Positions 209-10,695 of a stretch of DNA of 11,607 nucleotides are shown here, in pieces. The notes beneath the pieces are model-generated. The model saw only the letters and a program-made list of their open reading frames with translations. It searched no databases and was not told the origin of the DNA. How positions within the stretch are numbered: the first letter of the stretch is position 1; each line of letters starts with the position of its first letter. The translations under genes and the position numbers were made by a program. Origin of the DNA: DAOVGU01 sp030637775 [NCBI: bacterium] (lineage in GTDB: Bacteria; Ratteibacteria; UBA8468); NCBI GenBank assembly GCA_030637775.1, contig DAOWFY010000135.1, positions 1 through 11,607 of the forward strand. Direction: 5' to 3'.

Positions 209-889
209 TTAATCCTTCAGCCTAAAGGTTATGGGCACGGTTATCTCTATCTCCTTTTTCTTTAAACCCTCGGGGATAGGAGGAAAGGGCGAGGCCCTTT
301 CAACAGTCCTTTTTGCCTCATTATCAAGGATGGTATGCTTGGATGAAGAAATTAAAGAAATGCTATTCGCTTCTCCATCAGCAGAAAGATTGAACCTGAC
401 AATAGCTTTCCCTTCAATTCCATTAAGTTGTGCTCCTCGAGGATACCTTTTCACCCTCTCAATTCTCTCCCTGATCTTTGCTAAAAAGAAATTTTTTAAC
501 CTTCCTGCTTTCTCTTCTGAAAAAACAGTGTCTTCCTTTAATAGAACATCAGAAGGATCAGGCAGGGGGACATTCTCTGAGTCCATTGCTCCTGCTTCTT
601 GTAAAAGATTTATCTTCTCCTTATGATCATTCTTAAAATTTCTTTCCGAAAAAATCAGTTTCTCGGGAAAAATTGTCTTCGAGAAAGATATCTCATTCGC
701 AGGATAAACACTCTTTTTTAAGGAGGCTTTAATAGGAATTATATCCTCCTTTATTTCAATGAGTCTTATCGGTATTACCTTTGGCCTAATCTGTAGACTA
801 CTTGAGCTACGACCAAAGAGAAGGAGTCCCGAAATTAGACCAAGATGAAGCAAAATTGAACCGATAAAAGGAATAAGCCTATCCTTCAT
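209..889 (-). CDS. tonB: TonB-family energy transducer
   Basis: 226 residues. TonB couples the inner-membrane proton motive force to outer-membrane receptors. A short cytoplasmic start is followed by one membrane anchor at about residues 6-26. It carries Ser11 and His15 with the same S-x3-H spacing as the functional Ser/His pair in the E. coli TonB anchor. A charged periplasmic linker leads to a C-terminal TonB domain at about 145-226, with the typical YP...G..G.A.V.F.....DG pattern and an SPFPPIP segment. The long Pro-rich Glu-Pro/Lys-Pro spacer of E. coli TonB is absent. Its ATG overlaps the stop of the upstream gene as ATGA. Sitting at the end of a B12 operon, it probably serves a corrinoid receptor. 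No exbB or exbD is in the window, so it must use partners encoded elsewhere. Confidence 0.92.
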   Translation of the reverse strand: MKDRLIPFIGSILLHLGLISGLLLFGRSSSSLQIRPKVIPIRLIEIKEDIIPIKASLKKSVYPANEISFSKTIFPEKLIFSERNFKNDHKEKINLLQEAGAMDSENVPLPDPSDVLLKEDTVFSEEKAGRLKNFFLAKIRERIERVKRYPRGAQLNGIEGKAIVRFNLSADGEANSISLISSSKHTILDNEAKRTVERASPFPPIPEGLKKKEIEITVPITFRLKD

Positions 890-1572
890 TTTTTATCTCT
901 GATTGACTCTGGCATTTTAAACAGATTTAAAATTCCATGGCACTGACAAGCGGTCCCTATGGCTAATGTTTGAGGTAATTCTTTTTTAACTTTATTCAGA
1001 AATTCTATGATGATTTCTGTCCTGATTCCTCCTAAGCCGACCGATATCTGCTCAGAAACAAAGATTTTGTTAATGTCAAACTTTCTAAAAATAGCATAAT
1101 TTAAAAGTGCATAGACTGGAGCAGGTCTTGGTTCTTTGGTTAAACGGCAATACTCATCCGGAGGAATACAGTCTTCCCTACAGGTCTTCTCTTTTGACAT
1201 ATAACTTAAGACTAAGGTAGATGTTGCTCTATCCTTTCTGCTGATTAAACTTTGCGGTAGGTATCTTACTACAATGGCCAAGCCTTCCGGAAAGGGTTTC
1301 AGATTGAAGACTTCTCTGAATAATCTTCCTGCAGTGTGCCCCGGCATAGCGGGAATGATAAAGTCTGGTTTTATTTCCATAATGAGATTTAAAATACCAC
1401 TTTTTCTCATCGGAATAAATTCATCAGTAGATAGAAATTTCCTTGCCGAACAATAAGAATTGTTATCTACGACAATAACTCTTCTGACATTTCTCTTTTT
1501 AGCAAATTTTACCGCTTTTGTCCCATATCTCCCACCACCAAAGATAAGAACGGTCTTATTTTTTAACTTCAC
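886..1572 (-). CDS. Unrecognised Rossmann-type protein with clustered cysteines, B12-operon associated
   Basis: 228 residues; I do not recognise the family. The first 40 residues look like a dinucleotide- or nucleotide-binding Rossmann unit: a beta strand, GGGRYG at 12-17, a helix, then a second strand ending in VVVDN with Asp36. The middle carries Cys131, Cys135 and Cys142. The C-terminus has Cys209, Cys211 and His212 in a TACQCHG motif. These could bind a metal or Fe-S cluster or act as redox thiols. No membrane segment or signal peptide is apparent, so it is probably cytoplasmic. The start is GTG with a strong GGGAGG just upstream, overlapping the btuD stop by 17 bases; its own stop overlaps the tonB start as ATGA. 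Coupling to the ABC importer suggests a role in handling imported corrinoid, such as reduction or ligand removal, but that is inference. Confidence 0.85.
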   Translation of the reverse strand: MKLKNKTVLIFGGGRYGTKAVKFAKKRNVRRVIVVDNNSYCSARKFLSTDEFIPMRKSGILNLIMEIKPDFIIPAMPGHTAGRLFREVFNLKPFPEGLAIVVRYLPQSLISRKDRATSTLVLSYMSKEKTCREDCIPPDEYCRLTKEPRPAPVYALLNYAIFRKFDINKIFVSEQISVGLGGIRTEIIIEFLNKVKKELPQTLAIGTACQCHGILNLFKMPESIRDKK

Positions 1573-2356
1573 CTTTCCCTCCCGGAACTAAACAGATAAG
1601 TGGTTTGGAAGAAATTGGATTTTTTTCTACCACCACCGGAGTCTTATAAACCTCCTCAATGATAGAGTAAGTGAGGATTTCATCGGCGGTGCCGATAGAA
1701 TGAACTTCTCCTTCTCTTAAAAGAAGCAGACGGTCACAGTAAAGACTGGCTAAATTTAAATCGTGAAGAACAATAATTACGGTAAGGTTATTTTGCTCAT
1801 TCAACCTCTTTACTAAATCAAGAATTTCTATCTGATGCCCAATATCCAGATGTATGGTTGGCTCATCCAAAAGAAGAAGTTCTGGCTCCTGTGCCAGAGC
1901 CCGGGCAATAATCGCCCGTTGTCTTTCTCCCCCACTTAACTCACCAACATTTCTTTCGGATAAATGGGTAATATCGGTCAACGACATCGTATTTGCCACT
2001 ATCTTTTCATCCGTTTTTGTTTCCAAAATCTGAAATCTCCTTCGGTAAGGAATTCTGCCTAAAAGGACATATTCCCTGACGGTAAAATTGAGTGTTATCT
2101 CTTCGGCAGATTGAGAAACCACTGATACTTTCTGTGCCAACTCCTTAAATCCCATCCTGTCAATTCTTTTTCCTTTAAAAAGAATTCCCCCTTTTAATGG
2201 TTTCAATACCCGTCTTATCGCCCGCAGAAGAGTGGACTTTCCCGAACCATTGGGACCGATGATTCCCATTAATTCGCCATCATTGACACTAAAAGTAATA
2301 TTCTTCAGGAAAAACCCGGCCTCATAACCACAGGTTAAATTTTTTACTCTTAACAT
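1556..2356 (-). CDS. btuD: Corrinoid ABC transporter ATP-binding protein, BtuD/FecE type
   Basis: 266 residues. The ATPase of the inner-membrane corrinoid importer, hydrolysing ATP on the cytoplasmic face to drive BtuC. It shows a complete nucleotide-binding domain: Walker A GPNGSGKST at 34-42, a Q-loop near 80-82 (VVSQS), the signature LSGGE at 140-144, Walker B LLLLDEP at 160-166, and the switch histidine His198 in VLHDLN. Length fits the iron-siderophore/B12/hemin subfamily. The start codon shares one base with the btuC stop (TAATG), indicating translational coupling. This subfamily carries either iron chelates or corrinoids; the surrounding cob genes and B12 riboswitches favour corrinoids. 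Confidence 0.92.
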   Translation of the reverse strand: MLRVKNLTCGYEAGFFLKNITFSVNDGELMGIIGPNGSGKSTLLRAIRRVLKPLKGGILFKGKRIDRMGFKELAQKVSVVSQSAEEITLNFTVREYVLLGRIPYRRRFQILETKTDEKIVANTMSLTDITHLSERNVGELSGGERQRAIIARALAQEPELLLLDEPTIHLDIGHQIEILDLVKRLNEQNNLTVIIVLHDLNLASLYCDRLLLLREGEVHSIGTADEILTYSIIEEVYKTPVVVEKNPISSKPLICLVPGGKGEVKK

Positions 2357-3357
2357 TATTTGGCTGTCCCTACCAACTGCTTCTTACTTAAGAAATAGAT
2401 AAATAATACCCCTCCGAGAATTCCCGTGATTACTCCTACAGGAAGTTCTATCGGGGAAATTACGGTGCGAGCAAGAGTATCGCAAAGAAGAAGAAAAATT
2501 CCTCCACCCAGAAAAGCGGCCGGTAAAAGTATGCGATGGTCACTTCCTACGAACATCCGCATAAAGTGCGGTACAACTAATCCTACAAAACCAATCATTC
2601 CTGAGACGGAAACGACTGAGCCAGTGAGTAAAGAGGCAAGAACAAAAAGTATTTTTTTAGTCCTTTCAACATTAATCCCCAAATGTAGTGCCTCCTCTTC
2701 TCCCAGAGAAAAAGCGTTAAGATTATGAGCGAAGAAAAAGGAAAGGATTGCACCTAAAATAGACAAGGTAATAACCAATCTTATCAATCCTAAGTTACTT
2801 TCCTCTAAGGAACCCATTATCCAGAAAAGAATGCCATGAAGTTTGGTTACATCGGCTAAAGCCATAATTAGAGTAATTAAAGATGAAGAAAGGAAACTGA
2901 GCATCACACCAATAAGCAGGAGGGTGGGAATTCGCAAAAGACCTTTACGGCTGGCAAGAAAGTAGACGATAAATATGGCTAAGATAGCTCCCGACATACC
3001 GGCTAAAGGAAGACAAAAACCTAAACCTAAGCTTATGCTTAATGTCACTCCTAAGGCTGCTCCTCCCGAAACACCCAAGGTATAAGGGCCAACTAAGGGA
3101 TTGCGAAACATTCCTTGAAAGATAACTCCCGAGACGGCCAACGCCCCTCCTATAAATATAGCTAAAAGAATCCGGGGGAACCGAATATGGAAAAGAATGG
3201 TAGATTCAATTCCCTTTTCTGGACTAAAAATTAAAGAGACAATTTTTGATAAGGAGATTTTGTCCGCTCCTACACTTAAAGAAAAGATAGCCGAAATTAA
3301 AAGAAAACCGGTTAAAGCAAATATCCAGATTAACCAACCTTTCAATTTTTTATTCAT
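2356..3357 (-). CDS. btuC: Corrinoid ABC transporter permease, BtuC/FecCD type
   Basis: 333 residues, largely hydrophobic, with roughly nine to ten membrane segments as in the FecCD/BtuC family. Family-typical stretches include HIRFPRILLAIFIGGALAVS near 57-76 and VSGMIGFVGLVVPHFMR near 251-267, the latter including the cytoplasmic region that contacts the ATPase. It forms the inner-membrane channel through which BtuF delivers its ligand. Its start overlaps the btuF stop by four bases (ATGA) and its stop overlaps the btuD start, so the three transporter genes look co-translated. Substrate assignment rests on gene context. Confidence 0.93.
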   Translation of the reverse strand: MNKKLKGWLIWIFALTGFLLISAIFSLSVGADKISLSKIVSLIFSPEKGIESTILFHIRFPRILLAIFIGGALAVSGVIFQGMFRNPLVGPYTLGVSGGAALGVTLSISLGLGFCLPLAGMSGAILAIFIVYFLASRKGLLRIPTLLLIGVMLSFLSSSLITLIMALADVTKLHGILFWIMGSLEESNLGLIRLVITLSILGAILSFFFAHNLNAFSLGEEEALHLGINVERTKKILFVLASLLTGSVVSVSGMIGFVGLVVPHFMRMFVGSDHRILLPAAFLGGGIFLLLCDTLARTVISPIELPVGVITGILGGVLFIYFLSKKQLVGTAK

Positions 3358-4235
3358 TTTCCGAATATTTCCGGATGAATCCTCTTAGCCAGTTCAGGAA
3401 GACCTTTAATGACTAAATTAGAAGAAGGTATGGTGATTATCTGGGAGCCAATATCATCATAAATTCGACCGTTCAAAACAGCAGAAATCCTTTGCCAACC
3501 TTTTCTTCTTTTCAGTGTTTCCTTACCATAACCCCTTCCCATATAGGGCAGAATAATTACTTCCGGATCCTTGCTGATGATAAATTCGGCCGATACACGA
3601 GGATAAGGTTTATCGATATTATGGGCAATATTTTCCCCACCAGCAATCTCAATTAGTTCATCGATAAACGAACCTTTTCCGCAGGTAAAAAGTGGGTTAT
3701 ATCCTGTCTCCACATAGACACGCGGTTGATTAAAAGAAGATGTCTGTGCTCTTATCTGTTCAATTCTTTTTTGCATCTTGCGGATAATCCTTCTTGCTTC
3801 TTCCGGAACTCCACAGATCTCCCCGATCCTTTTCACTTTAAGGAAAACTCCTTCTATTCCTTTTTCCTCAAATACTTCCACTCTTATCCCCAATTTCTTA
3901 AGGGTCTTTACTGTCTGTCTTTGACCCACATAATTAGTAGCAAACACCAAATCCGGAGAAAGACTGACAATTTTTTCTAAACTTGGCTTCATATAAAGCC
4001 CAATTCTCTCTACTTCCTTTACTTCTTTAAGATAATCGGAGGAGGTAGTTACCCCCACAATTCTATTCTGTAATCCTAACTCAATTAAGGTCTCGGTAAA
4101 TCCAGGTGCCAGAGAAATGACACGTTGAGGAGGTTTTTTTAGCTGAGAAATTTCATTTTTCTCTTTCCCGCAGTTAGCGAAACTAAATAGAATTAAAGAA
4201 ATTGCAATTACTTTAAGAGATTTAGAGAAAAGCAT
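3354..4235 (-). CDS. btuF: Corrinoid substrate-binding protein, probable lipoprotein, BtuF type
   Basis: 293 residues from the chosen start. It is the periplasmic or membrane-anchored binding protein that captures corrinoid and docks on BtuC. After a short basic N-terminus and a hydrophobic stretch, Cys22 lies in a loose lipobox (FANC). The mature part has the bilobed fold signature of this family: RVISLAPGFTETLIELGL near the start of lobe 1, SLEKIVSLSPDLVFA in the middle, and a lobe 2 region around ISKDPEVIILPYMG. A start 14 codons upstream exists, but the ATG at 4233-4235 has an AGGA sequence eight bases upstream and begins directly at the signal sequence, so I prefer it. It overlaps the cbiB stop by 28 bases. 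The lipobox is not canonical at its last two positions. Confidence 0.9.
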   Translation of the reverse strand: MLFSKSLKVIAISLILFSFANCGKEKNEISQLKKPPQRVISLAPGFTETLIELGLQNRIVGVTTSSDYLKEVKEVERIGLYMKPSLEKIVSLSPDLVFATNYVGQRQTVKTLKKLGIRVEVFEEKGIEGVFLKVKRIGEICGVPEEARRIIRKMQKRIEQIRAQTSSFNQPRVYVETGYNPLFTCGKGSFIDELIEIAGGENIAHNIDKPYPRVSAEFIISKDPEVIILPYMGRGYGKETLKRRKGWQRISAVLNGRIYDDIGSQIITIPSSNLVIKGLPELAKRIHPEIFGK

Positions 4236-5170
4236 ATTGCTATTCCTAAGAGGAAGAAAATTAAAGAAGCAAGCCACATCAGAGAAATTGCCTGAAGAAT
4301 ATCCTCCGGCTCCTTTTTCTTTAAATTTCTTCCAATTAAGGGTTTTTCCACCATTTCTCCCCGATAGAAATTACAGCCTCCCAGTCGAAGGGAAAGAGCT
4401 CCGGCAAAGGCTGCTTGGGGAATGCCGGCATTGGGACTGGGTGATTTATTCCCATCCCGATGAACCACTCTCCAGGATTGTCGAAAGCCCTTCCCCGAGA
4501 GAAAACTCACAGAGGGTATGAGCAATCCACCGATGCGCGCCGGAATCCAGTTTGCCAAATCGTCCAATTTAGCTGCAAACCAGCCAAAATCCAGATACAT
4601 TTTATTCCTGTAGCCAACCATAGAATCCAGGGTGTTCACCGCTTTGTAAGCCAAAGTCAGGGGAGCACCACCAAGAAAAGCATAGAAAAGAGGGGAGATT
4701 ATTCCATCGACACTGCTTTCGGCTACCGACTCCACCGTTGCTCTAATAATTTCCTCTTCATTCAAATTTTCTGTATCCCTTCCCACAATGACCCCTGCTC
4801 TCCTTCGTGCCAAAGAAATATCCCTTTTTTTCAACGCCTGGCAGACCTTTTTTGCTTCTATCCCCAAACTTTTGGTGGAAAGGGCGGTAAAGATTAGAAA
4901 GGAAGAGATGCCAAACTGTAACCAGAAATTTATTTTCCCAGTCCATCTGATAACTTCCCAGACTATTAGATAGGAGCCTCCTACAATTATCAGTACCAAA
5001 AGAAACCCGGCAAATTTCTGACCTTTGAAAATCTTGCGCAACCGGGGTCCCAAATAGGTAACTGCTCTTCCCATTCCCTTTACCGGATGGGGAAACCAAT
5101 AAGGATCACCAAAGGCTAAATCCAAAAAATAGGCAACAATAATTGAATAAATAAGATTAATCGAATTCAT
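4208..5170 (-). CDS. cbiB: Adenosylcobinamide-phosphate synthase
   Basis: 320 residues, close to the usual size. This inner-membrane enzyme joins cobyric acid to (R)-1-amino-2-propanol phosphate, the CobD product. Conserved family blocks are visible: FGDPYWFPHPVKGMGR at 20-35, GRDTENLNEEEIIRATVESV and then SVDGIISPLFYAFLGG in the middle, and YKAVNTLDSMVGYRN. Several hydrophobic segments fit a polytopic membrane protein, including two near the N-terminus and one at the C-terminus. The start overlaps the upstream Dph6-like stop by 14 bases and has only a weak GAAG ribosome site, consistent with translational coupling. The symbol cbiB is used because cobD is assigned to the decarboxylase in this operon; the two names are swapped in some organisms. 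Confidence 0.95.
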   Translation of the reverse strand: MNSINLIYSIIVAYFLDLAFGDPYWFPHPVKGMGRAVTYLGPRLRKIFKGQKFAGFLLVLIIVGGSYLIVWEVIRWTGKINFWLQFGISSFLIFTALSTKSLGIEAKKVCQALKKRDISLARRRAGVIVGRDTENLNEEEIIRATVESVAESSVDGIISPLFYAFLGGAPLTLAYKAVNTLDSMVGYRNKMYLDFGWFAAKLDDLANWIPARIGGLLIPSVSFLSGKGFRQSWRVVHRDGNKSPSPNAGIPQAAFAGALSLRLGGCNFYRGEMVEKPLIGRNLKKKEPEDILQAISLMWLASLIFFLLGIAICFSLNLLK

Positions 5171-5828
5171 ACTTCAAAACATTCAGAAACCAGTGACCAT
5201 TTTTAAGTACTTTATCGCTCTCCAAAATTTTTATTCTTCTTTTAAAGATTGGTCCATTGATCACAAATGTGTGATATTCGCCAGATTCCCCGCAGAGGTT
5301 AATCCTTTTTTTCTCTAACTCCTGAATGAAATTTTTATCTATTTTCTTACCCAACCAGTCCTTATCAAGAACCTCTGCTCTTATGGCGACAATGATTGCC
5401 TCAAAGCGAGCAAGGATAAATTCCTCAAGAAGTTCTTTTTGATTTTTACCCCAGAGGGGAAGATAAGCTTTTGTCTTCACTTCTCGGCAGACCCTTTCCA
5501 CCCAATCTCGATGCTCCTGGAGATCAATATCGCCAAAGACCCCTGCTTTTACTCCTTTTTCTTTGAGCTTCAAAACTGCTTTCTTAAATTCTTCTTCGTA
5601 GGTCTCCCAGGTGCATCTTTGCTGAAGAAGAGGAATATTTAAGGCCTCTGACTGAGCCTGAATCAACTTTGAATTTAAGCCATGTGACCTCGACCTTTCT
5701 CCATCTTCAGTAACCATATTGAGAAGATAGAAAATTTGAAAACCCTTTGAGATTGCCTGATGGAGAGCAAAACTACTTTCCTTTCCTCCACTCCAGGAGA
5801 CAAAGGCCTTTATATCAGTATCGCTCAT
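5157..5828 (-). CDS. Dph6-like PP-loop ATPase (ATP_bind_4/MJ0570 type)
   Basis: 223 residues from the preferred start. It belongs to the PP-loop adenylating family that includes eukaryotic Dph6, which amidates diphthine with ammonium. Visible motifs are the nucleotide-binding SGGKES at 13-18, a GDIDLQEHRDWVERVC block in the middle, and GEYHTFV at 183-189. Bacteria lack diphthamide, so the true substrate is unknown. An upstream ATG at 5925-5927 would add 33 residues, but that part overlaps the cysteine-rich tail of the previous gene and does not resemble the family. The tandem ATG-ATG at 5826-5831 sits immediately before the conserved strand; the first would add one residue. It overlaps the upstream gene by 14 bases and cbiB by 14. 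Its place suggests action on a corrinoid or side-chain precursor (inference). Confidence 0.85.
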   Translation of the reverse strand: MSDTDIKAFVSWSGGKESSFALHQAISKGFQIFYLLNMVTEDGERSRSHGLNSKLIQAQSEALNIPLLQQRCTWETYEEEFKKAVLKLKEKGVKAGVFGDIDLQEHRDWVERVCREVKTKAYLPLWGKNQKELLEEFILARFEAIIVAIRAEVLDKDWLGKKIDKNFIQELEKKRINLCGESGEYHTFVINGPIFKRRIKILESDKVLKNGHWFLNVLKYEFD

Positions 5829-6729
5829 CATAACAGTACCCACACACTTTGCAATGGGAAGTTTGGGGAAGAAAGCCGGTTCCACATCCGCTACATCTTT
5901 TCTCATTTTCCTTTGCTGGCGGAACATCCCCTACTACATCTCGATAAATCTTGTAGTAATAAAAATGCTCCTCACTCCTGAACCTTACTGGAAGCCTCTG
6001 GGCTTTTTCAAATTCTCTATCTGAAATCTTAGAGGTGAGAATCTCCCTTAATTTACTGAATCCTGAGCCAGATTCTATCGGCACCTTTTTTCTCCAGATA
6101 ATTTCTCTTGGTAAGGGATCTTCAAAGGCTTTACGCAAAATCCACTTCCCCCAAATTTCACCTTTTTCTCTCTTCAGCTTTAAATTCGGGGGAACGGAGA
6201 GAGCAAATTTTATGAATTTTTTATTCAGATAAGGCTGCCTTATTTTAATTCCTAAAAACTTGCCAAGTTTATTGGAGGAAAAATGCATTAAAGAAGCAAC
6301 CGCAGGAAGATATTCCTTTAAGTTAAGATGATGCATATAGGAATAGCCAGCAAAGAGTTCATCCGCCCCATCTCCCGTCATAACAGTTTTTATCCGCTGC
6401 TGCTTAGCCATTTTCAGGCCAAAGAATATGGCGAGATCATTGGGAATTACCGGATCAAAGGTCTTAAGAATCTTTATTACTTTTGGAATTGCTTTAATCG
6501 CCTCCTCTATTTCAACCCTTTCTCGGTACCACTCTATATTAATAAATTTAGCAACCTTTTCTGCATATTTTCGATCTTCTCCAGAGTTCTCCAGGGTAAC
6601 GGTAATTCCTTTTATTTTTGGGGCTAAAGAGGCTAAGATGGCAGAATCAAGTCCACCGGAAAGAAGTAACCCCTCGGCTAAATTCTCACCAACCGCCTTT
6701 GATAGTTCCTTCTTCAAATTCTCTTCCAT
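5815..6729 (-). CDS. Asparagine-synthase-like ATP-dependent amidoligase with C-terminal Cys-rich tail
   Basis: 304 residues corresponding to the synthetase half of asparagine synthetase B. The PP-loop is SGGLDS at 24-29 and the second signature is TGDGADELFAGY at 118-129. The N-terminal glutaminase domain, with its catalytic Cys2, is absent, so the enzyme would need free ammonia, a partner glutaminase or another nucleophile. The last 30 residues carry Cys279, Cys282, Cys293, Cys296 and Cys299, arranged CxxC...CxxCxxC, a probable zinc ribbon. That tail overlaps the next gene. The start overlaps the cobD stop by 16 bases and lacks a clear ribosome site. A housekeeping asparagine synthetase seems unlikely given the missing domain and B12 context; amidation or adenylation of a corrinoid-related carboxylate is my inference. 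Confidence 0.85.
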   Translation of the reverse strand: MEENLKKELSKAVGENLAEGLLLSGGLDSAILASLAPKIKGITVTLENSGEDRKYAEKVAKFINIEWYRERVEIEEAIKAIPKVIKILKTFDPVIPNDLAIFFGLKMAKQQRIKTVMTGDGADELFAGYSYMHHLNLKEYLPAVASLMHFSSNKLGKFLGIKIRQPYLNKKFIKFALSVPPNLKLKREKGEIWGKWILRKAFEDPLPREIIWRKKVPIESGSGFSKLREILTSKISDREFEKAQRLPVRFRSEEHFYYYKIYRDVVGDVPPAKENEKRCSGCGTGFLPQTSHCKVCGYCYDERY

Positions 6730-7835
6730 AATATTTTTCTAAAGGCTTGAAGTAATTTTTGATTCTCCTCTCTGCTTTTCACTGCCACGCGAATAAATGA
6801 ATTATTAAGTCCTCGGATATTACTACAGTCACGAATTAGAATCCCTTTCTTAAGTAATTTTTTCTGAAGGTGAGAAGCGGAATTTTCTCTCCCCTTCACC
6901 TCATTCCTCCCCCTCAAGGGGGGAGGAGATAGGTGGGGGCGTATCTTAATGAGGATAAAGTTTGTTTTTGATGGAAATGGTTTTAGCTTAGAAATCCTAG
7001 CCAGCCCATTAAAGAGAAAGAGCCTTTCCTTTTCCATAAATTCCCTGCTTTTCTTAATAAATTTACTATTTTTTAAAAGAGAGATGCCGGCAATCTGGGC
7101 TAAACTGTTTACTGACCAGGACGCTCTGATCTCATTTAATCTCTGGATTAACAATCTATTTCCTATGCCATAACCGAGCCGCAGCCCTGGAATGGCAAAG
7201 AACTTTGTGAATGACCTTAAGATAAAAAGATTTCTACTAACGGCCTTTTTTAGACTTTGCTCCTCCTGGTAGTCAATAAAGGATTCATCAAGGAAAAGAA
7301 AAATATTTCTCCTTTTGGTCAATCTTACTATCTCCATCAGTTCCTCGCGAGGGAAAATGGTTCCGGTAGGGTTATTGGGATTACAGAGAAAGATAGCATC
7401 TATCCCCTTTATATACCCGAGAAATTTCCTTAATTCAAACGAAAAATTATTTTTTTCTTTGAGAGGGAAAAATCTTATTTTGCTTCTCTGTATTCTTAAA
7501 GCCTTTTCATATTCGGAAAATGTGGGTATCAGGATTAAAACCTTCTTAGGGATAAATGCCTGAACAAAAAGATAGATCAAGGGCGTAGAACCATTTTCAA
7601 CAATTATCCTTCGGCAATCAACATCGAGATATCGGGATATCTCTTCTCTTAATAACTTGCATTCTGGATCAGGGTAATGAAGAATCTCAGAGAGATTTCT
7701 TTTAATCTGCTTCTTTAACCGGGCAGGTAAACCCAGAGGATTGATATTAGCAGAAAAGTCAACAATCTCCTTGGGAGGAATTCCAAACTCTTCTGCTGCC
7801 TGCCTGATATTGCCTCCGTGAGGCCAATTTTTCAT
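6714..7835 (-). CDS. cobD: Threonine-phosphate decarboxylase (PLP enzyme) carrying an in-frame repeat insert
   Basis: 373 residues from the chosen ATG. It decarboxylates L-threonine O-3-phosphate to (R)-1-amino-2-propanol phosphate for CbiB. It is a fold-type I aminotransferase relative; counted from the ATG, HGGNI (6-10) and DFSANINPLG (26-35) mark the CobD/HisC-like N-terminus. NPNNPTG is near 152-158, DES at 183-185 and the PLP lysine Lys211 in SFTKFFAIPGLRLGYG. RVAV near 349 precedes the C-terminus. A GTG at 7881-7883 opens the same frame 16 codons earlier, but those codons lie inside a palindromic repeat, so I use the ATG. That ATG has no close Shine-Dalgarno match. Between LIKI and NSASHLQKK, about 19 residues rich in Pro, Arg and Gly are encoded by another palindrome and look foreign to the family. 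Confidence 0.92.
   Translation of the reverse strand: MKNWPHGGNIRQAAEEFGIPPKEIVDFSANINPLGLPARLKKQIKRNLSEILHYPDPECKLLREEISRYLDVDCRRIIVENGSTPLIYLFVQAFIPKKVLILIPTFSEYEKALRIQRSKIRFFPLKEKNNFSFELRKFLGYIKGIDAIFLCNPNNPTGTIFPREELMEIVRLTKRRNIFLFLDESFIDYQEEQSLKKAVSRNLFILRSFTKFFAIPGLRLGYGIGNRLLIQRLNEIRASWSVNSLAQIAGISLLKNSKFIKKSREFMEKERLFLFNGLARISKLKPFPSKTNFILIKIRPHLSPPPLRGRNEVKGRENSASHLQKKLLKKGILIRDCSNIRGLNNSFIRVAVKSREENQKLLQAFRKILWKRI
6885..6941. repeat. Palindromic repeat inserted in frame within cobD
   Basis: An imperfect inverted repeat inside cobD. The inner hairpin pairs 6906-6913 (CCTCCCCC) with 6919-6926 (GGGGGAGG) around a five-base loop. Outer arms CCCCTTCACCT (6891-6901) and AGGTGGGGG (6931-6939) extend it. 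It is far more G/C-rich than the surrounding gene and encodes a PHLSPPPLRGR-type peptide, which resembles peptides from widespread dispersed bacterial palindromes that I know generally. The stretch keeps the reading frame (about 57 bases, 19 codons) and falls between two conserved parts of the enzyme, probably in a surface loop. Confidence 0.8.
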
Positions 7836-7841
7836 TTTTAT

Positions 7842-7886
7842 GTAGTGGTCAACCTTGGTTGACAGCCGAGTAAACTCGGCCACTAC
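7842..7886. repeat. Three-way palindromic repeat at the cobS-cobD junction
   Basis: A 45-base element with outer inverted ends GTAGTGG (7842-7848) and CCACTAC (7880-7886). It encloses two hairpins: GTCAACC/GGTTGAC (7848-7863) and GCCGAGT/ACTCGGC (7865-7880). The folded form is a small cloverleaf. On the minus strand its first bases complete the cobS stop codon TAG (7883-7885), and its body forms the whole spacer between cobS and the likely cobD start. The second hairpin recurs exactly at 10256-10271. Confidence 0.85.
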
Positions 7887-8623
7887 GAACTATTACCGAG
7901 GATGATTATTAGAAGAGCGACAACTTCAACAATTTCATTTATTGCTCCCAAATTATCCCCGGTAATTCCCCCAATTCTTCCTTTGAAGATTACCAAAAGA
8001 AGAAATGTTGCCGATAGGAGTCCCCCTAAGAGATAAAAAAAGGAAAATTTGATAAGAAGCAAGCCGAGCACGGTTATCAATAGAGAAGTAAGAAGTATCT
8101 CTCTTCTCCCACTATTTTCGACAAATATTCTCCCCAGACCTTCCTCCTTAGCATAAGGAAGGAAAGCTGCCGCCAGGACCATTGCCCAGCGACCTAAAGC
8201 AGGAACAAGAAGTAGGGCATGATTACGAAGGGTAAATGGCAATTGATATAGGAAAAGATATTTTGCTCCTAAGAGAAGAATTAATGCAATCGCGCCTTTT
8301 GCCCCAATATTGCTATCCGCCATAATCCTTAAGATTTCCTCTTTGTCTTTACCTCCGGAAAGACCATCGACGGTATCGGCAAGACCATCCAGATGAAGAG
8401 CACTTGTAATACCGATCCAGACGAGTAGGAGCAGCAGATTAAGGGTAAGAATGGGAAGGAATTTTCTCAGAGAGATGGCAATCAACATCAATATCCCACC
8501 AATAAAAAGACCAACAAGAGGAAAGAAAATTACAGAACCAGCTAAATCTTTCTCCTCTATTTTTATTCCTTTAGGTATCGGAATAATGGTTAAAAATTGG
8601 AGTGCCGCCAAAAAACTTTTCAT
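7883..8623 (-). CDS. cobS: Adenosylcobinamide-GDP ribazoletransferase (cobalamin synthase)
   Basis: 246 residues, the usual length. This integral inner-membrane enzyme joins adenosylcobinamide-GDP with alpha-ribazole phosphate, the last assembly step before dephosphorylation. The family signature HLDGLADTVDGL lies at 77-88, followed by RIMADSNIGAKG at 99-110, the metal-binding acidic motif region. Six or so hydrophobic segments are visible. The start overlaps the cobT stop as ATGA. The final codons and TAG stop run into a palindromic repeat, so the native C-terminus may have been a few residues different, but no conserved part seems lost. Confidence 0.95.
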   Translation of the reverse strand: MKSFLAALQFLTIIPIPKGIKIEEKDLAGSVIFFPLVGLFIGGILMLIAISLRKFLPILTLNLLLLLVWIGITSALHLDGLADTVDGLSGGKDKEEILRIMADSNIGAKGAIALILLLGAKYLFLYQLPFTLRNHALLLVPALGRWAMVLAAAFLPYAKEEGLGRIFVENSGRREILLTSLLITVLGLLLIKFSFFYLLGGLLSATFLLLVIFKGRIGGITGDNLGAINEIVEVVALLIIILGNSS

Positions 8624-9711
8624 AATTTTTCTGATACTCCTGCCTCCTCAAAACTTGCCATCTGGTTCAAAATCTTGACTCCGGCCTCGATAATATTAAT
8701 CGCAAGGGCTGCCCCTGTCCCCTCTCCTAATCTCATCTTAAGATCAAACATTGGTCTTTGGTCCATTTCCCTCAGAGCAATGTTATGACCAATTTCCACC
8801 GATTTATGGGAAGCAAACAGGTAATCCTTAACAAGAGGAGCCAGTTGAGTGGCAACGAGGGCACTAACAGTAGAAATAAAACCATCGATCACTACCGGAA
8901 CCTTATTGGCAGCCGCGACAAGAACAACACCGGCCAATCCTCCAATCTCATAGCCTCCGACCTTAGCTAAAATATCTATCGGGTCGGTGGGATCAGGTCT
9001 ATTTACCCTTAGCGCTCTTTTTATCACTTCAATCTTATTTCTCAACTGTGTATCATCAATTCCTGTCCCCCGACCGGTAACATCCTTTACTCTTGCCTTG
9101 GTAATTGCGGCGAGGATAGCACTGACGGCGGTGGTATTTCCAATGCCCATATCACCAATTCCGGCAATATCAATACCATTCTTTTCAAGTTCTTCTTCAA
9201 AGACCTCTACCCCCGCTAAGATCGAGCTCAGTGCCTCTTTTTTAGTCATCGCTGGTCCCTTTGCCATATTCCCTGTTCCATAATTTATCTTTCTATCCTT
9301 GAAATTTTCGAATTTTGATTTCGGGGTACTCATACTGCGTATGGGTTGTTTGATTTTTTCTGCTACCCCCATATCTACCACTACCACCCTTGCTCCGACA
9401 TGGCGGGCCAATACATTGATGCCGGCTCCTCCCGATAAAAAATTGTAGACCATCTGTGCGGTAACCTCAACAGGATAGGCGCTCACTCCTTCCTCAGCAA
9501 CGCCATGGTCAGCAGCAAAGGTGAAGATTACTTTCTTTTCCAGTGAAGGATTGTTTTTCCTGGTGATGCCTGTGATTCTCTTAGCAAATTCTTCCAATCT
9601 TCCCAGACTCCCGATAGGCTTGGTAAGACTATCCAATCTCTTCTGCGTTTCCTGCATAAATCTCTCGTCAACCGGCTTGATTCTTTTAATTATCCCCCTG
9701 ATCCTTTCCAT
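8620..9711 (-). CDS. cobT: Nicotinate-nucleotide-dimethylbenzimidazole phosphoribosyltransferase
   Basis: 363 residues. It transfers phosphoribose from nicotinate mononucleotide to the lower-ligand base, giving alpha-ribazole phosphate. Family blocks are intact: LDSLTKPIGSLGRLE at 27-40, FAADHGV near 65-71, GAGINVLARHVGA, the nucleotide-binding GIGDMGIGNTT at 184-194, GRGTGIDD at 213-220, and RLGEGTGAA near 328-335. Glu330 in the last block matches the catalytic glutamate. The ATG has a strong purine-rich site (GGGAGGGG) upstream and overlaps the cobU stop by 22 bases. No dimethylbenzimidazole synthesis gene (bluB or bza) is present, so the lower ligand must come from elsewhere. Confidence 0.97.
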   Translation of the reverse strand: MERIRGIIKRIKPVDERFMQETQKRLDSLTKPIGSLGRLEEFAKRITGITRKNNPSLEKKVIFTFAADHGVAEEGVSAYPVEVTAQMVYNFLSGGAGINVLARHVGARVVVVDMGVAEKIKQPIRSMSTPKSKFENFKDRKINYGTGNMAKGPAMTKKEALSSILAGVEVFEEELEKNGIDIAGIGDMGIGNTTAVSAILAAITKARVKDVTGRGTGIDDTQLRNKIEVIKRALRVNRPDPTDPIDILAKVGGYEIGGLAGVVLVAAANKVPVVIDGFISTVSALVATQLAPLVKDYLFASHKSVEIGHNIALREMDQRPMFDLKMRLGEGTGAALAINIIEAGVKILNQMASFEEAGVSEKL

Positions 9712-10244
9712 TTCTTTCCCCTCCCTTTCAACTTAATTGGTATTCCCGCCACCACAAAATATACCTCATCCGCTCTTTCTGCCACTATCTGATTAGCAGA
9801 GCCTGCTAAATCCCTGAATCTTCTGGCTAATTCATTATTGGGAACAACCCCATCGCCTACTTCATTGGAAACAATAATCGTGGTGTATTTTGCTTTGCGT
9901 AATAATTTTACTATCTCTCTTACCTCTTTTAAGATTTTTCCTTCGGCCTCATCAGAGAGAAGAAGGTTGGAGATAAAAAGGGTTAAACAGTCAATAATCA
10001 AAAGATGGCAAAAAGATTCTTTGATTCTTCTGATCACTTTCAGAATATTTTTCTCCTCGGCAATTGTCTTCCAATCCCTGGGACGGTTCTCTTGATGGAT
10101 TTTTACTCTTTCAGCCATCTCCTTATCTTTGGGTAAACCGGTAGCTAAAAAAATTACCTTTTTCCCAAAACCCCTGGCTAATTTTAAGGCAAACTTACTC
10201 TTACCGCTTCTCACACCACCGGTGATAAAGATTACTTTACCCAT
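9690..10244 (-). CDS. cobU: Bifunctional adenosylcobinamide kinase / guanylyltransferase
   Basis: 184 residues, standard for the family. It phosphorylates adenosylcobinamide with a nucleoside triphosphate, then transfers GMP to give adenosylcobinamide-GDP, the CobS substrate. The P-loop is GGVRSGKS at 9-16. His50 in the RVKIHQENRP segment is the likely guanylylated histidine. Further family blocks are IDCLTLFISNLL near 94-105 and VSNEVGDGVVPNN near 124-136. It is the first gene after the riboswitch-terminator leader. No Shine-Dalgarno match lies in the 16 bases before the ATG, and a palindromic repeat begins about 12 bases upstream, so the original translation start region may have been displaced. 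Confidence 0.95.
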   Translation of the reverse strand: MGKVIFITGGVRSGKSKFALKLARGFGKKVIFLATGLPKDKEMAERVKIHQENRPRDWKTIAEEKNILKVIRRIKESFCHLLIIDCLTLFISNLLLSDEAEGKILKEVREIVKLLRKAKYTTIIVSNEVGDGVVPNNELARRFRDLAGSANQIVAERADEVYFVVAGIPIKLKGRGKKWKGSGG

Positions 10245-10255
10245 AATAAAACAAA

Positions 10256-10308
10256 GCCGAGTAAACTCGGCAACTACAGATTATTGTAGTAGCAAAGTTC
10301 ACTTTGCC
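10256..10308. repeat. Paired palindromic repeats just upstream of cobU
   Basis: Two seven-base-pair hairpins, GCCGAGT/ACTCGGC at 10256-10271 and GCAAAGT/ACTTTGC at 10292-10307, flank a short inverted pair CTACA/TGTAG (10274-10278 and 10285-10289). The first hairpin is identical to the one at 7865-7880 and is followed by the same ACTAC sequence. The second looks like a diverged copy in opposite orientation. The block lies between the leader terminator and the cobU start and will be in the cobU mRNA leader. Confidence 0.8.
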
Positions 10309-10315
10309 TACTCCT

Positions 10316-10355
10316 AAATAAAAAGCCCTTGACAAAAGTTATTATGTCAAGGGCT
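10316..10355 (-). terminator. Intrinsic terminator in the cob leader, likely riboswitch-controlled
   Basis: An 11-base-pair stem pairs AGCCCTTGACA (10324-10334) perfectly with TGTCAAGGGCT (10345-10355) around a ten-base loop. On the minus strand it is followed directly by TTTTATTT, a good U-tract. It sits between the cobalamin riboswitch and cobU, where an expression-platform terminator is expected, so B12 binding probably favours termination. On the plus strand the hairpin has no T-run and should not terminate. Confidence 0.85.
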
Positions 10356-10374
10356 GCACCCTGATTTCTTTGCC

Positions 10375-10440
10375 CTTTTTTCTTCAGTCCGCCATCTGGC
10401 GAATCTGAAGGCCACTCTTTTCTTTCCGCGAAGAAAAAAG
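10375..10440 (-). other. Extended leader hairpin between riboswitch and terminator
   Basis: Two complementary 11-base arms, 10375-10385 and 10430-10440 (CTTTTTTCTTC with GAAGAAAAAAG), can pair across the leader. They enclose a second hairpin with arms CTTCAG/CTGAAG (10381-10386 and 10404-10409) and an inner CGCCA/TGGCG. The two pairings share bases and so may be alternatives. The inner TCCGCCA...TGGCGA sequence resembles the palindrome found in the riboswitch, so part of it may also be repeat-derived. Confidence 0.55.
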
Positions 10441-10448
10441 AAGTTTTA

Positions 10449-10651
10449 TCCAGGCAGGTCTTCTGACTCGAAACTCAAACCTACTTGCTCACCTTCCCAT
10501 CCACCTGAGGCAGACAGTGGTATTTTGAGCTTTCGTCGTTTCTCACAGCGTCGGGAGCGTGTCCGCTTTAATTTGACACAAAGTGTCATTCCGCGTCCGC
10601 CACCGAACCAATGGCGGACGAGGAATCTCTACGGACTTCCCTTAACCTGGA
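10449..10651 (-). promoter_or_regulatory. Cobalamin riboswitch controlling the cob-btu-tonB operon
   Basis: On the minus strand the aptamer opens with TCCAGG (10646-10651) and closes with CCTGGA (10449-10454), a perfect P1. In order it has GGGAAGTCCG (10632-10641), the P4 partner CGGAC (10561-10565), and the core CGCTCCCGACGCTGTGAG (10542-10559). CCACTG (10515-10520), GGGAAGG (10492-10498) and a near-perfect B12 box within 10450-10469 follow. The P4 loop, normally about seven bases, is here about 65 bases and holds a palindromic repeat. The terminator downstream suggests transcriptional control. Whether the expanded P4 still allows ligand binding cannot be judged from sequence alone. Confidence 0.93.
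10574..10626. repeat. Palindromic repeat inserted in the riboswitch P4 loop
   Basis: A long hairpin with arms ATTCC (10588-10592) plus CGTCCGCCA (10594-10602), pairing with TGGCGGACG (10612-10620) plus GGAAT (10622-10626) around a nine-base loop. A second small hairpin TGACAC/GTGTCA (10574-10579 and 10583-10588) abuts it. The GAGATTCCTCG...CGGAATGACA layout resembles dispersed palindromes known from many bacterial genomes. Removing roughly 60 bases here restores an ordinary P4. Confidence 0.8.
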
Positions 10652-10658
10652 CATTCTA

Positions 10659-10688
10659 ATTATACAATCTTCCTTTACAAAATGTCAA
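10659..10688 (-). promoter_or_regulatory. Consensus sigma70-type promoter for the B12 operon
   Basis: On the minus strand a perfect -35 TTGACA (10683-10688) and a perfect -10 TATAAT (10659-10664) are separated by 18 bases. Transcription should start near 10651-10653, exactly at the first base pairs of the riboswitch P1 stem, which strongly supports both calls. With such a strong promoter, regulation must come mainly from the riboswitch and terminator. Confidence 0.9.
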
Positions 10689-10695
10689 CAATCCT

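Follow-up and report, generated by a model that had tools for sequence, protein, structure and literature searches.

The window analysed in this study is a stretch of 11,607 nucleotides (contig DAOWFY010000135.1, assembly GCA_030637775.1) from DAOVGU01 sp030637775, a member of the Ratteibacteria known from a metagenome-assembled genome of 1.40 Mb in 177 contigs (83.5% complete). It contains a cobalamin riboswitch followed by 12 co-directional genes on the minus strand, in agreement with the first-pass annotation, a model's reading of the bare sequence, which had described a 12-gene operon. The annotation and organization of the locus are provided in Table 1. The three transporter genes (btuF-, btuC- and btuD-like) are of the B12/iron ABC type, and the gene at 886-1572 gave no match in Pfam. 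RF00174 was the sole Rfam riboswitch above its curated cut-off in the window (72.4 against 31.5 bits) and it matched over the whole model; the first-pass annotation had noted all the conserved blocks. The P4 arms had also been placed correctly and they match each other. The second riboswitch, at the left end, has the seven-base P4 loop attributed to it.

For comparison, the source genome (G000) was set beside one genome of the same genus (G001) and two of the same family (G002 and G003). The RF00174 search covered 35 genomes of the class, 26 of which gave a match; G002 (77% complete) had none in this search. Contig C239 of G001 is syntenic with the window. The terminator downstream of the aptamer is kept in the window, G001 and G003, with a strong predicted stem; it has a 10-nt loop and was thus not listed by the terminator scan, which allows loops of up to 8 nt. 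The L5 sequence UCCCG is present in the aptamer. Given that no convincing complementary L13 was recognized by eye downstream, control of the terminator by the aptamer is something that we infer; that the riboswitch still drives the operon is likewise deduced from the conserved promoter, aptamer and terminator.

Two other palindromes lie in this leader. The linker palindrome is unsupported as a dispersed repeat, its matches being the window and its G001 orthologue only. The palindrome just 5' of cobU, also delimited as 10256-10271, has a 6-bp stem with a T-rich tail, and it recurs at 7864-7894 (the cobS/cobD junction) and elsewhere in the genome.

Table 1. Annotated features of the window, together with a riboswitch insert of a related genome (last line).
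Feature	Position	Strand	Basis or remark
Left riboswitch (AdoCbl-type), 7-nt P4 loop, cut by contig end	1..114	-	RF01482, 31.1 bits, cut-off 50
Other operon genes: cobT, cobS, cobD, Asn_synthase-like, Dph6-like, cbiB, btuF-like, btuC-like, btuD-like, unassigned, tonB	209..9711	-	
cobU (adenosylcobinamide kinase/guanylyltransferase), first gene of the operon	9690..10244	-	NF004469, 192 bits, cut-off 161
Second dispersed palindrome (GTAGTTGCCGAGTTTACTCGGC), terminator-like, just 5' of cobU	10256..10285	-	
Intrinsic terminator AGCCCTTGACA..TGTCAAGGGCT + T tail (expression platform)	10316..10355	-	By eye and folding
Linker palindrome between aptamer and terminator	10382..10415	-	In window and G001, not in G003
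Cobalamin riboswitch aptamer, RF00174	10436..10664	-	cmscan 72.4 bits, E 1.2e-16, model 1-189
P4 3' arm CGGAC	10561..10565	-	Pairing probability 0.95-0.98
60-nt insert, member of a dispersed palindrome family, in L4 T-loop after UAG	10569..10628	-	Empty site in G001
Insert hairpin 2, GACAC-UUU-GUGUC, 5 bp	10575..10587	-	Fold
Insert hairpin 1, ATTCC/GGAAT frame stem + GTCCGCCA../..TGGCGGAC core	10588..10626	-	Fold
P4 5' arm GUCCG	10632..10636	-	Pairs with 3' arm at 0.95-0.98
Sigma-70-type promoter TTGACA-18-TATAAT	10659..10688	-	12/12 consensus matches; kept in G001 and G003
75-nt insert of the G003 riboswitch	L047 1727-1801 (G003:C234:2726-2800)		

The P4 loop of the main riboswitch, estimated at about 65 bases in the first-pass annotation, was counted at 66 nt and consists of UAG, a 60-nt insert and AAG, against 6 nt in the G001 orthologue. 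The insert sits after the third loop base, between T-loop residues 3 and 4, which is the fixed triloop position at which a helix interrupts a T-loop. It forms two hairpins, as had been proposed; hairpin 1 folds as 12 bp plus 5 bp across a 1x1 mismatch, where the first-pass annotation had counted a 14-bp stem. The 72-nt P4 stretch folds at -32.8 kcal/mol (z = -4.33), and none of 200 shuffled sequences was as stable.

Comparison with G001 revealed an empty site. Window positions 10316-10568 and 10628-10692 match G001 at 91.3 and 92.3%, respectively, and the two matches join at a single G001 base. The G001 sequence at the site is AAGTCCGTAG|AAGCGGAC, the window having its insert at the bar, and that of G003 (GTCCGTAAAGTGGAC) is likewise short. 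The corresponding P4 elements are GTCCG-TAGAAG-CGGAC in G001 and GTCCG-TAAAG-TGGAC in G003, in leaders that are otherwise alignable. With respect to G001 there is no target-site duplication beyond 1 nt, while with a G003-like empty site (GTAAAG) a duplication of TA is possible. Most simply, the insert would have arrived after the split from G001. The insertion is considered recent because the loops of both relatives are short and because the insert belongs to a dispersed family.

A long P4 arm shared by close relatives had been named beforehand as the observation that would speak for an ancestral extension; what the relatives carry is a short loop. The proposal that the long L4 is an ancestral P4 extension, grown locally and with no repeat involved, was rejected on the short L4 of G001 and G003, the same-genus and same-family genomes with a riboswitch at this place. 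It might draw on the extra L4 bases found in 14 of the 25 other riboswitch-bearing genomes of the class, 13 of which have arms that are not dispersed, but the window insert matches a dispersed family, and we regard this origin as very improbable.

The insert core occurs once in the assembly, and the family to which the insert belongs is defined by the frame AGATTCYTC-[variable hairpin]-RGAATGACA. A search of the source genome with the 72-nt P4 region gave eight further partial matches, from which the frame was recognized; the GGAATGACA-tail part is covered by the best of them, and the weakest is at chance level. The frame pattern matched 14 times in the source genome (the copy in the window included), 44 times in G001 (one match nested in another), 4 times in G002, 16 times in G003 and 3 times in the distant genome G047; the other 11 of the 16 genomes searched had no match, nor did the reversed-pattern control in any of the 16. 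A narrower frame pattern gave 59 matches in G004, which belongs to another family of the class. Other copies do therefore exist in the host genome, whose absence had been the second condition named against a dispersed palindrome.

The family core varies freely. In the 81 listed matches the variable pair of the frame was C-G in 31, T-A in 49, C-A in one and T-G in none, so that this stem position pairs in 80 of the 81 and the hairpin is maintained. The core stem of the window copy (GTCCGCC/GGCGGAC) is also that of the copy on contig C113 of the source genome. The tail hairpin TGACAC-UUU-GUGUCA was found, exact or nearly so, after several other family copies. At two orthologous sites of the source genome and G001 (C53/C79 and C77/C8, respectively) the frame arms are kept and the core hairpins are entirely different, which suggests replacement of the core rather than simple point drift. 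Further empty sites were sought with the flanks of 6 of the 20 prepared copies, of which 4 could be aligned, and no second clean family empty site between the source genome and G001 was found among those 6. Of the 4 aligned, two are the sites just described, with shared frame arms and different cores (C53 and the G001 copy on C8). The copy on C93 shares its right end alone with G001; at the site of the C57 copy G001 has other sequence; the C113 flanks match different G001 contigs, and those of C49 gave only a short match.

Mobilization of the window family by RAYT transposases was considered and is unsupported. Y1_Tnp genes were present in all five genomes searched, and the eight Y1_Tnp loci examined, out of 12, held no full copy of the family, the only match being one of 10 nt at chance level. 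GTAG preceded none of the 24 other family copies and CGTC preceded one; the GTAG before the window insert is also present in the G001 empty site. The window insert thus lacks the two marks of GTAG-tagged REP/RAYT systems, namely a GTAG end and a RAYT gene flanked by copies. Contig C157 of G001 has both a Y1_Tnp gene and copies of the family, some kilobases apart.

Arms in L4 are common in the class. L4 was taken from one riboswitch per genome (from two in G001 and in G014), and the rows G014b, G032a, G039, G050 and G058 were left out of the comparison of loop lengths. Extra bases or a hairpin were found in the 14 genomes mentioned above, and L4 was short in the remaining 11. Within genus g8, L4 is UG[G/A]AAAU in G016 and G024, while G010 and G022 have 11 extra nucleotides at the same point, which is also the loop position of the window insert; those of G022 hardly pair by eye.

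These arms cannot all be taken as repeats, given that 13 of the 14, each taken within its own query segment, had no second place in their own genome below E 0.4. The exception is G013, whose arm recurs at five other places, three of them with E < 0.001 and two with weaker matches. In this search reversed halves matched only at E > 0.1, and a G027 match across an artificial query junction reached E 1.4e-4. Single matches near this value are therefore unsafe, and the G013 arm was accepted as a repeat because of its five matches. Its genus-mate G019 has an arm in the same place, which may be a diverged homologue; overall identity is 69%, and the arm proper can be aligned in part only.

The riboswitch of G003 holds an insert of its own elsewhere in the aptamer, just before AAATACCACTG, with a length of 75 nt and two hairpins. 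Among the matches listed there were a full-length copy in G001 (C254, 77% identity), partial ones in the source genome and several short ones in G003, and none of them fell on the reversed controls. Positions 28-44 of this insert (16-17 nt) recur within about 260 nt of a Y1_Tnp match in 3 of 8 RAYT loci, one each in G003, G000 and G001, with E values of 3e-4, 3e-4 and 0.02 (best reversed control, 0.31). The G003 insert is thus probably a RAYT-associated REP.

Repeat-derived arms are accordingly counted in three cases, the fresh one of the window (L4), that of G013 (L4) and that of G003 (another loop), and repeats supply some riboswitch arms, not most. As a tentative generalization, to which we give somewhat less than even odds, dispersed palindromes could be a recurring source of cobalamin riboswitch arms: they would insert into loops that accept extra length (L4, the accessory region), be tolerated at once by folding on themselves and then drift into lineage-specific variable insertions.

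With regard to the window riboswitch, we consider that a palindrome landed in a 6-nt L4 T-loop and now points outward as a tolerated arm of a switch that still works, with a probability of about 0.7. A dispersed, non-coding palindrome would have inserted into the L4 of an existing riboswitch after the split from the nearest sampled congener, and, folded on itself, would project from P4 as an additional arm. The aptamer with its four-way junction would keep its fold and B12 would still control the terminator before the operon, so that, at most, ligand affinity or kinetics would have changed. The insert is read as an extra arm because it closes on itself and sits where L4 takes extra bases in other genomes. 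With the insert in place, the P4 arms are predicted to pair at 0.95-0.98. In folds of truncated transcripts P4 closes at 100 nt, after the insert hairpin, which is fully formed by 75 nt. UUCCU of the insert is paired with the conserved GGGAA region in the 45- and 60-nt folds, and this pairing is resolved by 75 nt. It must be noted that energy folds of the whole leader miss the known architecture of the aptamer whether the insert is present or not, and that they are informative for P4 and the insert only.

The main alternative is a switch broken or strongly weakened by the insert, which would split the L4 T-loop and abolish the L4-L6 contact, leaving the operon constitutive or constitutively terminated. 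This contact organizes the four-way junction of cobalamin riboswitches, according to the part of PMC10907184 available, and P4-L4 swaps were inconclusive, with several chimeras losing activity, in the available part of PMC9600662. The aptamer also scores lower in the window than in G001 (89.7 bits), and over 168 shared aptamer sites there were 9 window-only changes against 4 in G001 only and 6 in G003 only, numbers that are too few for a difference. A P5 pair is lost through one of the window-only changes (G to A at 10551), while those at 10514, 10512 and 10503 keep the pairing of the accessory stem (U-A, U-G and G-U, respectively). Against a broken switch, P4 still forms in the folding, the terminator stretch had no window-only change in 45 sites, and many natural members carry extra bases or hairpins in L4, as also described in the portion of PMC2258182 available. 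This pattern of changes and conservation fits a live switch without being a proof of it. The loop departs from the P4 T-loop consensus (U-GNR-A plus two bulged bases) irrespective of the insert, being UAG...AAG in the window and UAGAAG in G001. The conserved T-loop G is missing from both UAGAAG and the UAAAG of G003, a family-wide trait that predates the insert, and the window riboswitch appears to be an RF00174 member with a degenerate L4. As the L4 of this family has no consensus G, its contact with L6 may have been weak even before the insertion. Loss or strong weakening of the switch is regarded as unlikely.

The tolerated arm was also weighed against an insert that is kept for a function, such as stabilization of the mRNA or faster folding of P4. 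The great stability of the hairpin and its formation before P4 closes in the truncated folds are in line with such a role, as are the arms of genus g9 and G033, which keep pairing despite drift in sequence and length; however, the window arm bears no sign of selection and no second species with it was seen among the genomes examined, which makes a function improbable. An artefact of assembly has less still in its favour. Repeats are a common cause of false assembly joins and the source genome is a fragmented and incomplete one, but the core of the insert is single in the assembly, both flanks are orthologous to G001, and at 60 nt the insert is shorter than usual reads. Such an error is therefore hardly probable.

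The tolerated arm has precedents. Helix-interrupted T-loops at P4 of AdoCbl riboswitches were described in 2007 (Barrick and Breaker, PMC2258182). The variable insertions of that report, in the part available, resemble the window insert in that a stem-loop interrupts the terminal triloop of the same loop and leaves the core intact; their origin is not given there, whereas the window arm is a dispersed repeat with an empty site in a congener. The P6 accessory region is also highly variable, according to the accessible part of PMC9600662. The window insert is thus less unusual than the first-pass annotation suggested, given how common L4 arms are in the class and that helix-interrupted T-loops are known at P4.

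Outside riboswitches, RPE palindromes occur in the tmRNA and M1 RNA of Rickettsia (Ogata et al., 2002, cited in PMC2229807). As presented in the available part of the citing article, they are, like the window insert, dispersed palindromes that sit within the gene of a structured RNA and are tolerated to all appearances; they differ in being 105-146 bp long and of Rickettsia, while the window insert has 60 nt, is of another family and lies in a ligand-sensing cis-regulatory RNA. With REPs, the GTAG- and CGTC-tagged palindromes treated in the accessible portion of PMC3733652, the window family has in common that it is short and dispersed, and it differs in the lack of a preceding GTAG at the 24 copies inspected, in its free core and in its absence from the RAYT loci examined. 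It is the G003 insert that contains GTAG and has 16-17 nt in common with sequence beside RAYT genes. Among the titles and abstracts listed from the open-access literature, none described a dispersed repeat within a riboswitch or the frame sequence.

Variable riboswitch insertions are well known, and the present one is an L4 interrupted by a helix that derives from a repeat and has been observed shortly after it arrived. With age, the origin of variable insertions becomes difficult to trace; in this case the insert is fresh, and its family and its empty site are found with it. Since two natural orthologues, about 91% identical outside the arm, can be compared, it becomes measurable where a new riboswitch arm comes from and what it costs. 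Palindrome insertion in structured RNA, as known for tmRNA and M1 RNA, is extended to a ligand-sensing switch.

Other observations were made at this locus and in its relatives. The cobD gene carries, at window positions 6883-6941 (minus strand), an in-frame insertion of 17 residues in CobD (the HLSPPPLRGRNEVKGRE region) with respect to the L091 homologue. The DNA of this insertion is palindromic, and pieces nearly identical to it occur elsewhere in the source genome (41 nt, 95%, L074) and in G001; it constitutes a second repeat insertion in the operon, inside a protein gene, like RPEs. In G001, an element of 150-160 nt lies between the terminator and cobU (L092 about 2109-2268; G001:C239:3317-3483). 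It belongs to a high-copy family found in all four genomes searched (G000-G003; for example, L172) and its ends look complementary by eye. No Rfam match was obtained up to E 0.05 for L172 or for the stretch in L092, and a MITE and an RNA element are both candidate identities for it. A FuFi-1 match in G001 scored 26.3 bits, below its cut-off of 59.6, and was taken as chance. Finally, L091 (DYKC01000013.1, labelled Vermiphilus) had no riboswitch above the cut-off in the 2.5 kb before cobU. Its genome is apparently G019, of another family of the class, and its cob genes have about 80-85% nucleotide identity to those of the window, pointing to either a mis-binned contig or horizontal transfer.
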